Source of the DNA: Methanolobus sp.
Lineage (GTDB): Archaea; Halobacteriota; Methanosarcinia; Methanosarcinales; Methanosarcinaceae
DNA: 36,370 nucleotides
Direction: 5' to 3'
Assembly: GCA_029762595.1 (NCBI GenBank)
Contig: JARVGJ010000023.1
Location: 1 to 36,370, forward strand
Both the position numbers and the translations under genes were made by a program. Shown piece by piece: positions 25,738 through 30,159 of this stretch. Numbering within the stretch: the first letter of the stretch is position 1; each line of letters opens with the position of its first letter. The notes under the pieces were generated by a model. The model worked only from the letters and a program-made list of their open reading frames with translations. It was not told the origin of the DNA and made no database searches.

Positions 25738-27804
25738 TTATTTGTAAACAAGAGTATACGCAAGAGAGAAAACTGTCAGTGCGATGGCTACAATTATCAG
25801 ATATAAGTATTTCTCAACAGCATTTATAGCAGCATTCTCAATTAGACTAAATAAGGCAAATATGCCTTCTAACATGCCCTCGAAAGGGTCAGTAACAACC
25901 CGCTGTATCTTATCGAATCCTTTACCAATGCTCTTTGTTCTTTCTAAGAAAGATAACTCCTTTGCCGGCTCTTGCTGCACTTCCATGGAGATCTCAGAAG
26001 GCCTTTCATACATGGCATAGAGCTCTTCCTCATCATATTCCTCCTCCTCCTCATCTTCGGAGGAGGGGAGGGGCTCAGCGGGGGTTGCGGGTGCATCATC
26101 TGACGTACCCTGGGTTTCGGGTAGCCAGCCGCCGTTGAAGGGGTCCCAGTACTGCTTAACCTCCCTGCCGGCTACATAGAAGGAGGATTGGGCCTGTCCC
26201 TTGTAATCTCCGATGCCACGGAACGAGCATACGGCAGGGGGGAGGTCGGGTGCTGAAGAGGAGCTGATATCGTAACTGAAGCTAAGGTCAGTACCGGGGG
26301 GGAGGAGCACACCCTTTACTGAGACAACATGAGAGCCATTGTACTGCGATATTGAGTGGTCCCACTCGCTCAGGGGCAGGTCGCCTCCCTTAAGGCTCTC
26401 CTCAATGCTGCCGTCCACATAGCCTGCAGCAGCGGGAATGGTGTCGGTCAGGTTCACCCAGGCTGCACGGTCCCCGGTGTTGGACACTTTAAGGGTCACA
26501 GAGCGGGCGTCCTCAGAAGCCGAAAGGGTCTTTGCCAGCACTATATAGGGACCGTGGACCTTGATGCCCGATGTCCCGGACTTCCAGCTTAGCTCCTTGC
26601 CGAAAAAGTTCGCAGTGACCACCACACTGGCAAAGGAGTATGTGCCCTGTCTCATGGGCACAAGCTTCTGGCCAAGATAATACTGCCCGTCAGGGTCCAT
26701 GGAAGCATGGCTGCCTGACTCGTATGTCTCAGAAATTACAAACTCATCCGCAACCGGGGAAAAAGTGATATTCAGGTCACTGATAGTGTACAGTCCGGTA
26801 TTGAAGATATGTGTCCTGAGCAAAGAATACTCCCAGGCATCCCGGATCTCATAATCCTTTGAACTGTAGGTTTTGCTGCCGCTCTGAAGATGCCGGACAT
26901 ACCATGAAGTCATGTTGATATCATCATTTATCACTTCCAGGATGACCTTCATATCGGGTTCTGTGCATTCAAATGAAGTGTAAGCTGAAGTGTCGTGGTA
27001 TCCTTTCTTTATATCATATCCGCCGGCTGTGGCATTGATGGAATACACCAGCTCGTAGGGTGAGGTCCTGCCGTCCCACTGCGGGGCTATCACCGTGAAA
27101 TTAATGGCCGCGGTGTCACCTTTCTCAAGGCAGCCAAGCTCTTTTTTAATGATCTGGTCCCTGAACTGGAAATCCCCCTTACCTTTAAGGCTGAAATCGA
27201 CAAGATCGACCATCAGGACGACATTCTCCGCCCATGCATCCCCTGTGTTCTTAACCGTAACCTCTATCTTCTTCTCCTCGCCGGGAGCATACTGCTTGGC
27301 TGAAACGGAAACCCCATCCACTGTTTCAGAACTTGCAGCAAAGCCTATCTCAAGCTTTGGCCTGCCCCTGGAATAGAGCTTTATCTGTGCAGAAGGGGTT
27401 TTCTGCCCGTCCACCGAAATACCGCTCAGCTCCACCTTGATCTCATCATCCCACACAAAGGACTTCCGGTCATCTGCACCTTCCAGGAAAAGGAATTCCT
27501 TTTTAACGATACCTTCCTTCTCGGCAGAGATCAGCGCCGCCTTCATGCTGTCGTCAAAGTCATCTGCTCGGAAGGTATACTTTATACCATTTACCTCCTT
27601 GACCGCCGTACGTCCCCACTGGATACTGAGGGAACCTTCACTCACCCACTCCACACAGGTATCAAGATCAGCACAGGGACAGAACGTAGCTGCCGCAGAT
27701 GCTGCGGGCAGCATTGAAGCAAAGAGGATCAGCATTGCTGCTATGCAGGACAGGGTAAGCACATACACGACCGTTTTTTTCACAGATTCCACTCCAGCCC
27801 TCAT
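25738..27804 (-). CDS. Large anchored surface protein with CARDB/DUF11-like repeats
   Basis: About 688 residues from Met at 27804; a GTG at 27849 is in frame but would add residues before the signal peptide. Order: Sec signal peptide (about 8-36), a Cys-rich start (CPCADLDTC), a region with KVELSGISVDG, then CARDB-like beta domains with VTVKNTGDAWAENV (about 180) and VSNTGDRAAWVNLTDTIP (about 440), typical of COG1361 S-layer-associated proteins. An acidic linker (EDEEEEEYDEEEL), an amphipathic helical part and a C-terminal TM helix (about 662-686) follow. It is thus anchored with a very short cytoplasmic tail. Function unknown; S-layer or surface architecture is inferred. Confidence 0.8.
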   Translation of the reverse strand: MRAGVESVKKTVVYVLTLSCIAAMLILFASMLPAASAAATFCPCADLDTCVEWVSEGSLSIQWGRTAVKEVNGIKYTFRADDFDDSMKAALISAEKEGIVKKEFLFLEGADDRKSFVWDDEIKVELSGISVDGQKTPSAQIKLYSRGRPKLEIGFAASSETVDGVSVSAKQYAPGEEKKIEVTVKNTGDAWAENVVLMVDLVDFSLKGKGDFQFRDQIIKKELGCLEKGDTAAINFTVIAPQWDGRTSPYELVYSINATAGGYDIKKGYHDTSAYTSFECTEPDMKVILEVINDDINMTSWYVRHLQSGSKTYSSKDYEIRDAWEYSLLRTHIFNTGLYTISDLNITFSPVADEFVISETYESGSHASMDPDGQYYLGQKLVPMRQGTYSFASVVVTANFFGKELSWKSGTSGIKVHGPYIVLAKTLSASEDARSVTLKVSNTGDRAAWVNLTDTIPAAAGYVDGSIEESLKGGDLPLSEWDHSISQYNGSHVVSVKGVLLPPGTDLSFSYDISSSSAPDLPPAVCSFRGIGDYKGQAQSSFYVAGREVKQYWDPFNGGWLPETQGTSDDAPATPAEPLPSSEDEEEEEYDEEELYAMYERPSEISMEVQQEPAKELSFLERTKSIGKGFDKIQRVVTDPFEGMLEGIFALFSLIENAAINAVEKYLYLIIVAIALTVFSLAYTLVYK

Positions 27805-28284
27805 TTCATTTTTCTTGTATACTCTCAGGTAACGTGTCCGGTAAAACACAGACCGGCAGGATTACAGGAATGAAGAGAGAACATGGCATGCTTAGAAGTA
27901 TAAACGGCGATATATAAAAAACCGGGGAAGGTTCAGTAAGACCATGTAATCTCTTCATAAAGGCAAAAAAGGATTTTTCTGTTATAATTCTTGCACAAGT
28001 GAAATAAATAGAAGGGATTTTTTTCTGGACACTATAGGATATATATAGAACCGATAAGGAACACAGGAACATCGATCTTGCAAATGCTCTTCTATAAAAT
28101 ATTCAACATATATTCAACTTGTATTACTTGAGTTTATCTGTACTATAATCACCATCAATAGTATTCATACGTACCATACTTAACAAAATAATTTATAGCC
28201 AATGGAACCAGACAATACTTGAACAATTATTATATTTTGTTTAGCCGATAACGATATTTATTCCGCCTGTGACCAATCGATAAG
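27805..28284. other. Intergenic, no gene recognised
   Basis: AT-rich DNA upstream of the surface-protein gene. TATA-like runs on the minus strand (for example near 28035-28045 and 28010-28015) may be its promoter. No convincing ORF. Confidence 0.4.
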
Positions 28285-28300
28285 GCAAATTATATATATT
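28285..28300 (+). promoter_or_regulatory. TATA box of the candidate small RNA
   Basis: GGCAAATTATATATATTATA-like sequence at about 28283-28302, with TATATATA at 28291-28298, is the strongest TATA/BRE-like element in this spacer. Initiation about 25 bases downstream would fall at the base of the stem-loop at 28317. Confidence 0.55.
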
Positions 28301-28316
28301 ATAATTCCATTGAAGG

Positions 28317-28388
28317 AAGAAGTGAGCGGGTCTGTTTTTAACCCCACTCCCACACTAACCCCCACTCCCCAACCCGCTCACTTTTTGA
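28317..28388 (+). ncRNA. Candidate small RNA: 15-bp stem with C-rich loop
   Basis: AGTGAGCGGGT (28321-28331) pairs perfectly with ACCCGCTCACT (28372-28382). Four further pairs at the base (28317-28320 with 28383-28386, one G-U) extend the stem to 15. The 40-base loop contains CCCCACTCCC twice in exact copies (28342-28351 and, starting inside a longer C-run, 28360-28369). A TATA box lies at the right distance upstream and a T-run (28382-28386) at the end. No ORF explains it. Unpaired CACUCCC-type sequence could pair with G-rich ribosome-binding sites, so a trans-acting regulatory RNA is inferred. Confidence 0.55.
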
Positions 28389-28560: not shown

Positions 28561-30159
28561 TCAGTTCCTTGAGAACCAGTCCCATATCTTCATTGCTTTT
28601 TGGTCATCAACATTTTCCACATGAAATGTCTTTCCTGATGGTGATGATAGAACAGATGCACTTATAGTGCTCAGATCACTTCGTCGCTGGAAAGGATTGG
28701 AGCTGATCCTAAGGGACTGGACATGGCTCCTCATCATGAGGATATTATATCGCCCTATCTTGCGAAAACGAAAGTTCAGTTGCGTATCATCTATAGATGT
28801 AGCAGCCATCCTGTAACGTGAGAGCCCCAACATGAACACAGGAGGCAAGACCAGTAATCCCAGCCAGCCATATGGTAATAACTGCAAAGGTAAGATGAGT
28901 ATAATTGCAATTCCCAGTGTACGGAAAAGATAACGTTTTCTGGCTCGCTTTGGCACCGATTCCATAGATGTTGGCATTTTGTACTCAGGTATTATCCTTT
29001 CCAGAAAGTTGACAACTTCCCTTTTGTACAAAATAGGACAGATTATGGTCACATTGTCCTGGTCCCGGAAACCTCCCCCCGCAACCTCAGAGTTGATAGC
29101 ACACAGGCCAAAAGGCTGCCTGAGTATTCCTTCCTGTATTGATAAAGCCTGTATCCTGTTGATCTTTAAAGTGAATTCCTTCTGCTCGATTAGCCCCCAT
29201 GAGACCCTCAGGTATTCGTTCTGCCTTATTATGGTAAAGCTGGCATATTTTACCATGTAAACAATAATTGATGTCAACCATGAAAGCAGCAGCAATGATA
29301 ATAATATTACCACGATCAAAAAGATGTTAGTGTCACTTTTAGGTAGCAGTTGTTCAATAAGGAGATCCGTAACATTTTCCGGTATATATGGATAGAACTG
29401 GGAAAATATGGCTGCTATAAATGAAAATAGCAACATGAACCTTCCGGAGGTAGCCCCGGCCAAAAAAGTGTTCCACAAAGGTACAACATAGCTGGCTGTT
29501 ATTTTTTGTTCTGTGTTATTCCCTGTGTTATTTTGGGTTTTATTCCCTGTTTTATTTTGGGTTTCATTTTCTGCTTTATTTTCAGTTTCATATCCTGTTT
29601 CATATATTTTTTCATATCCTGCATTATTTGCTGATCCGCCTTCATCCACCTGATCCTTTGTTTGCTGATATGTGCTTCCCTTATCAGAAAGGGAAGATAT
29701 GTCCTGTCTGCTCTCCAGATATGATCTGATCCTGTGGGTTTCTTCCATTTTCACGGCCTTAAGGACCAGCTCGGATTCCATTCCACCGCCGGCGGTCTCT
29801 ATCTGGACTGTTGCAACACCAAGTAAACGCTGCAGCAGGCCGGTACGGATATTTACGGTCTGTACCCTTTCTTTTTTTATGGACCGTTCCTTTTTGAATA
29901 CCAGACCTTGTTTTATGTGCAGGTAGCCATCTTCATATCTGTAAGTATAGAGATACCATCTTAATGCTGATAGTGCAAACGAGGCAATGAAAATAACAGC
30001 TAATAACCAGACATATGGGCGCAGATCACCCAAGCCTGTATCCCCGTTTACCGACAGCAGGAATACGAACACAGGTGGAAGCATATAGACAGAACTTCTT
30101 ACTGCTTCCAGTATTATCATTACAGGATGCTGGCGTTTTATATCAGACATCTTCATCAC
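28561..30159 (-). CDS. YdbT-like bPH2-domain membrane protein
   Basis: A 532-residue membrane protein with three bacterial PH (bPH2, DUF304) repeats: about 70-150 (GLVFKKERSIKKERVQTVNI), 315-390 (GLIEQKEFTLKINRIQALSI) and 440-520 (KIGRYNILMMRSHVQSLRI). These are interleaved with paired TM helices near 20-65, 235-305 and 410-432. A hydrophilic insert (about 155-220) is rich in Asn, Thr, Lys and Glu with repeated N-K-T/N-N-T triplets. Family members occur as YdbS-YdbT pairs; their function is unknown, with resistance or membrane roles reported for a few. It overlaps the ydbS-like gene by 17 bases. Confidence 0.85.
   Translation of the reverse strand: MMKMSDIKRQHPVMIILEAVRSSVYMLPPVFVFLLSVNGDTGLGDLRPYVWLLAVIFIASFALSALRWYLYTYRYEDGYLHIKQGLVFKKERSIKKERVQTVNIRTGLLQRLLGVATVQIETAGGGMESELVLKAVKMEETHRIRSYLESRQDISSLSDKGSTYQQTKDQVDEGGSANNAGYEKIYETGYETENKAENETQNKTGNKTQNNTGNNTEQKITASYVVPLWNTFLAGATSGRFMLLFSFIAAIFSQFYPYIPENVTDLLIEQLLPKSDTNIFLIVVILLSLLLLSWLTSIIVYMVKYASFTIIRQNEYLRVSWGLIEQKEFTLKINRIQALSIQEGILRQPFGLCAINSEVAGGGFRDQDNVTIICPILYKREVVNFLERIIPEYKMPTSMESVPKRARKRYLFRTLGIAIILILPLQLLPYGWLGLLVLPPVFMLGLSRYRMAATSIDDTQLNFRFRKIGRYNILMMRSHVQSLRISSNPFQRRSDLSTISASVLSSPSGKTFHVENVDDQKAMKIWDWFSRN
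29505..29605 (-). repeat. Degenerate tandem repeats inside the ydbT-like gene
   Basis: Repeats of units such as TTTTATTTTGGGTT and ATTCCCTGT (plus strand) encode the Asn/Thr/Glu-rich linker (about residues 190-217). The repeat pattern suggests slippage-driven length variation. Confidence 0.6.

Follow-up and report, generated by a model that had tools for sequence, protein, structure and literature searches.

A hairpin with a C-rich loop in Methanolobus, very probably one copy of an uncatalogued small-RNA family of the Methanosarcinia

Comparative sequence analysis makes it very probable that a hairpin within a 36,370-nt stretch of Methanolobus DNA (the whole of which is referred to here as the window) is a genuine gene for a small RNA and represents one copy of a family uncatalogued in Rfam 15. 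The first-pass annotation had proposed an unannotated small RNA at this site, and the proposal is strongly supported by class-wide conservation, stem covariation, a fixed promoter distance, frame-breaking indels and conservation independent of the neighbouring genes. Conservation, structure, promoter position, non-coding nature and multiplicity were all computed here. As to function, we give roughly an even chance to a trans-acting non-coding sRNA that presents a C-rich element to short G-rich sites in mRNAs; its expression, pairing, targets and Lsm binding we infer only. Such an RNA would be independently transcribed, approximately 60-70 nt long and one of several siblings per genome. Its stem would seal both ends and act as an exchangeable scaffold that keeps the single-stranded loop open. 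The loop would hold two functional pieces, a U-run that may bind an Sm-like (Lsm) protein, and the C-rich element CCCCCACUCCCC, doubled in the window copy, which would be the part that base-pairs with the mRNA sites. Placed under differing promoters, siblings would deploy one and the same recognition element in differing conditions.

All features of the gene lie on the plus strand of the window. A TATA-like box, TTATATATAT, was found by sequence inspection at 28290-28299 and would serve as the sRNA promoter. It precedes a 15-bp stem (AAGAAGTGAGCGGGT/ACCCGCTCACTTTTT, 28317-28331/28372-28386, one G-U pair included) that closes a 40-nt loop (28332-28371). Within the loop, a U-run in the 5' half (28335-28339), the possible Sm-like protein site, is followed by two copies of CCCCACTCCC at 28342-28351 and 28360-28369, the second falling within the stretch of the loop that varies least between genera (CCCCCACTCCCC, 28359-28370). 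The box, the stem and the repeat-bearing loop had all been reported in the first-pass annotation and are confirmed here. The predicted hairpin has a minimum free energy of -25.4 kcal/mol, compared to -12.2 +/- 2.9 kcal/mol for dinucleotide shuffles (z -4.66; 0 of 200 shuffles as stable), and its reverse strand folds with a z of only -1.7. Only the inner 10 bp of the stem are conserved (28322-28331/28372-28381; GTGAGCGGGT in the 5' arm and ACCCGCTCAC in the 3' arm). A T-run, also described earlier, is present at 28382-28386, but it is the outer portion of the 3' arm rather than a separate tail and is not kept in relatives; this TTTTT may aid the end of transcription in this species only. The hairpin is flanked by two minus-strand genes, one for a CARDB/DUF11-type protein (25738-27849) and the other for a bPH_2 protein (28561-30159).

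A scan for motif plus stem yielded 179 members, in which the promoter and the lack of a reading frame were assessed. Measured to the stem, the start of the best TATA-like box lies mostly 29-32 nt upstream, and in 85% of members it falls within 22-40 nt. Because this distance is fixed, the RNA probably starts at its stem, with transcription beginning at or within a few bases of it; in the window this would be at 28320-28322, the first bases of the conserved stem. A TATA box at fixed distance in most members, together with an intergenic position between opposite-strand neighbours in the window, points to an independent transcription unit with its own promoter. T-runs after the stem are not conserved (TTTT occurs within 30 nt in 40% of members) and so do not define the 3' end. 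Upstream of the type C TATA box (type C being one of the stem types described below; loci L002, L055, L067 and L068) lies an operator-like palindrome, similar to CTCATTATAATGAG / ATCATTATTATAATGAT, that is shared by different genera.

The GTG at the predicted start also suggests a short leaderless mRNA that begins at the stem and encodes a small protein, and M. mazei sRNA154 does have a leaderless sORF (PMC11456600). However, single-nucleotide indels in the U- and C-runs separate close species and change hairpin length and frame, and the lengths of the 179 members are spread over all three mod-3 classes (55/57/67), so the hairpin does not appear to be coding and holds no conserved reading frame. 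Many members, moreover, have ATGAGC, ACGAGC or TTGCGC at the start in place of GTG. We therefore consider a leaderless mRNA very improbable.

Stem covariation, which had been put forward as a check on the original proposal, was assessed in two alignments. Among 35 members aligned without a model, 89.9% of cells were paired, compared to 82.4% after shuffling, and six pairs had changed on both sides (0 of 500 shuffles did as well). When 39 class-wide matches were aligned to the covariance model, 92.1% of cells were paired vs. 80.2% for shuffles (again 0 of 500), with 9 of 11 pairs changed on both sides and 51 double-changed cells; slid controls reached at most 54%. This second alignment leans towards structure by construction, a bias of which the first is free. 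In both, the stem compensates, as is expected of a conserved RNA secondary structure. The stem has also been swapped wholesale while the loop motif was retained, as seen with the TTGCGCGGGTGG, AGGTGTGTG and GAACGAGCGAG stems. We distinguish type A (GTGAGCGGG), type B (TTGCGCGGGTGG/CCACCCGTGCAA), type C (ATGAGCGGG), the AGGTGTGTG type of a M. psychrophilus-like genome and the GAACGAGCGAG type of Methanosarcina; the loops of all five hold CCCCCACUCCC-like motifs.

The constant content of the loop across members is a U-run plus CCCCCACUCCCC, the U-run standing ahead of the C-tracts in 97% of the 179 members. The doubled motif noted in the first-pass annotation holds for types A and B and the main Methanosarcina member, but type C and the Methanothrix copies lack the first motif and carry a single one. 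One locus (L033, 1471-1548, genome G064) has an 18-nt tandem duplication in the loop that produces a three-motif version, from which it follows that loop length is tolerated. The second motif is kept in Methanolobus, Methanomethylovorans, ANME-2, Methanoperedens and Methanothrix and is more degenerate in some Methanosarcina paralogues; paralogues from Methanosarcina and a related genus (L094 and L096) have longer degenerate loops, e.g., CCCCAACUAUUCCCCAACUAUUCCCCC, in which C4-5 tracts are kept and the exact motif is lost. An alignment of 29 type A loci shows almost no change in the 60-64-nt hairpin, which is exactly the same in 13 of them, whereas the 60 nt downstream show 25% ungapped identity to the window, which is the chance level, and the 35 nt upstream that bear the promoter show 53%. 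Since the loop stays fixed while the stem is exchangeable, the loop is, on this comparative evidence, the working part of the RNA.

These comparisons also bear on a DNA-level element, i.e., a G-quadruplex or i-motif, a REP-like repeat or a terminator hairpin, with no RNA gene at all. The sequence forms a palindrome and recurs in the genome, and the opposite strand does fit the four-tract G-quadruplex pattern described earlier. However, the quadruplex is not conserved and is best regarded as a by-product, because many relatives carry one C-rich motif only and so lack four G-tracts. A TATA box also stands at fixed distance upstream of the C-rich strand, the asymmetry of the loop (U-run, then C-run) is conserved, the stem covaries, and positions are conserved across genera. 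There is thus only a slight chance that the hairpin acts as DNA.

The family is distributed throughout the class. A BLAST search with 131 nt (E ≤ 1) matched 108 of the 112 genomes of the source organism's taxonomic family, many of the same genus over 60-62 nt at 100% identity. A covariance model with an 11-bp stem (R1), used for searches within the class Methanosarcinia, found the sRNA in 102 of those 112 genomes and in 224 of 238 genomes class-wide (36 of 39 genera), among them Methanolobus, Methanosarcina, Methanothrix, ANME-2 and Methanoperedens. Copies per genome number 1-15 at E ≤ 0.01 and up to 20 at E ≤ 1. Two Methanoperedenaceae genomes, G181 and G154, have 20 and 12 copies, respectively, some of them closely spaced. 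Specificity beyond the class was judged by scanning a collection of 84,980 species for the exact core plus 3' arm, which returned at least 118 stretches; among the 80 loci listed, 72 bear Methanosarcinia names, 5 are labelled "uncultured archaeon" and 3 are bacterial by name. The predicted fold around the three bacterial-named matches does not contain the family hairpin. Viral carriage of the family was looked for and none was found.

In most Methanolobus and relatives, type A members are found where the mrp antiporter operon (mrpF, mrpG) ends, with sua5 on their other side (mrpFG/sua5 at 28 loci); type C members, across genera, have an RFC-like AAA ATPase gene on one side and a topoisomerase VI B-like gene on the other. 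The genome from which the window comes has an intact type A copy with other neighbours, and the one mrpG found in it has no adjacent hairpin. Conservation away from the usual neighbours argues for action in trans and against a cis element. An H+-pyrophosphatase neighbour is common to the main Methanosarcina member and Methanolobus type B, which may therefore be one orthologous gene whose stem has been exchanged. The window's genome also holds a type C member with the ATGAGCGGG stem and one motif (L002/L088; G000:C58:59448-59504) and a type B member with a TTGCACGGGTGG stem and two motifs (L003/L102; G000:C55:56886-56976). Two further C-rich-loop hairpins with unrelated stems, L152 (G000:C55:108474-108530; AGGTGTGCGG stem) and L133 (G000:C1:69850; long GAACGTTAACGGACCCT stem), may be divergent siblings.

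The first-pass annotation had suggested that the loop could pair with ribosome-binding sites, and had named target prediction as a check. One explanation of this kind is an anti-SD-type RNA that masks ribosome-binding sites generally, or those of the ACDS (cdh) genes as reported for M. mazei sRNA41. The C-rich loop is in keeping with it, and in duplex energy cdhE start sites take the first and fifth places among 116. The start regions of mrpE and mrpG in the neighbouring operon are also G-rich, with GGAGUGG or GGGGUGG in many species. However, the anti-SD core CCUCC occurs in only 2 of 179 loops. Target prediction covered selected genome stretches, and start-site pairing was judged by permutation control alone; at the 116 Methanolobus start sites, permuted loops bound as well or better in 59 of 60 cases for the whole loop and 32 of 60 for the core. 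Nor, in the four genomes examined, did the real loops match cdhA-E start sites better than permuted ones. Among ACDS sites the exception was a cooC-like one in Methanosarcina, at which the real loops exceeded most permutations (for three loops, 9, 13 and 49 of 300), within a set of 38 loop-site comparisons. Of 549 start windows, 4 contained GGAGUGG, as did 4 of 549 internal windows; as these windows span 20 and 100 nt, respectively, it is about fivefold denser per base at starts, as expected of an SD-like sequence. The mrp operon was rejected as a target because its G-rich start regions vary and partly reflect the end of the mrpF frame, which the mrpG signal overlaps, and ordinary SD function. 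Ribosome-binding-site pairing thus found no backing. With CCUCC rare and permuted loops equal or better, the family does not bear the marks of an anti-SD-type sRNA, general anti-SD function and ACDS targeting were both set aside, and we regard this explanation as improbable.

In four genomes, near-perfect 12-nt complements of the loop outside the sRNA loci were about as frequent as in controls. The idea of one conserved mRNA target with a near-perfect match was rejected on the same ground; several of the matches were further sRNA-like hairpins. Because there is no excess of such complements and start-site pairing is no better than that of permuted loops, nothing here speaks positively for the base-pairing step in our preferred reading, and a protein partner agrees with the results almost equally well. 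The main rival is accordingly a protein-binding or sponge RNA, in which no base-pairing occurs and the loop is a fixed landing site through which a protein is titrated or guided. CsrB-type RNAs titrate or guide CsrA in this manner. The loop motif is steadier than pairing with varied mRNAs would need, the stem being a mere scaffold, and enriched complementary sites were not detected. C4-5 tracts with short A/U linkers persist in the degenerate paralogues, and many copies per genome suit a sponge. However, the partner protein is still hypothetical, and short pairing seeds may be lost among chance matches, which makes pairing compatible with missing perfect complements. We consider this rival a serious candidate, albeit on the unlikely side, and retain the trans-acting, base-pairing sRNA as the preferred reading.

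Apart from a tRNA gene, no Rfam 15 family scored above its gathering threshold in the window or in ten loci bearing relatives, which rules out Rfam membership; the best sub-threshold match was Plastid-psbJ-1 (28.4 vs. 62 bits), alike on both strands. The tRNA gene, at 1620-1693 on the minus strand, is the only Rfam match in the window. M. mazei sRNA41, compared here by description only, is likewise an intergenic trans-acting sRNA from the same archaeal family and is reported to cover the ribosome-binding sites of polycistronic ACDS mRNAs (Buddeweg et al. 2018, as reviewed in PMC5867862), whereas the loops described here have no extra complementarity to cdhA-E start sites over permuted loops. 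M. mazei sRNA154 and sRNA162 are also archaeal intergenic regulatory RNAs with structured stem-loops, and one loop of sRNA154 contains an anti-RBS sequence; sRNA162, at 191 nt with three stem-loops, is reported from three Methanosarcina species only, in contrast to the single short hairpin, class-wide and in many copies, seen here (PMC5867862, PMC3510493). Stems also present unpaired C-rich regions in staphylococcal IsrR (PMC9410917) and in rhizobial RNAs with CCUCCUCCC (PMC3927594), but these belong to another domain of life and homology is not expected. The C-rich regions of IsrR, moreover, act on Shine-Dalgarno sites (PMC9410917), while the loops here mostly lack CCUCC and have no start-site preference.

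Several cold-induced conserved sRNAs with a common upstream "cold box" are reported for M. psychrophilus R15, of the same genus (PMC5378194). The M. psychrophilus-like genome G044 has at least five members of the family, and four of its hairpins (C1:69774, 351377, 561375 and 2877686), with AGGTGTGTG-like stems and a common TACCACCAACCCC loop, could be those sRNAs. The upstream motif GTGGCTCTTCNTTCATAATTTTCG was rejected as the nine-copy cold box, since it occurs once in G044. Literature searches, which extended to text outside the M. mazei and M. psychrophilus sRNA tables, found no description of the family. Individual members could well figure in those tables, which cover 208 sRNAs for M. mazei and 195 for M. 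psychrophilus, and sRNA41 might itself be a member; this is the main caveat to novelty.

Most of the archaeal sRNAs studied so far have a narrow distribution. A multi-copy family that spans a whole class and keeps its recognition loop fixed suggests that methane-cycling archaea possess a regulatory layer both old and general, and the constancy of the C-rich loop points to a common binding partner, a candidate protein or RNA. More tentatively, and as something we hold possible rather than probable, this could be a near-universal regulatory RNA of the Methanosarcinia, methanogens and methane-oxidising ANME alike, with a replaceable stem and a C-rich loop kept since the class ancestor through binding one conserved protein or RNA; it would then be an archaeal global regulator without a described counterpart. 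Since Methanosarcina strains are genetically tractable, the idea of such a regulatory layer is testable.
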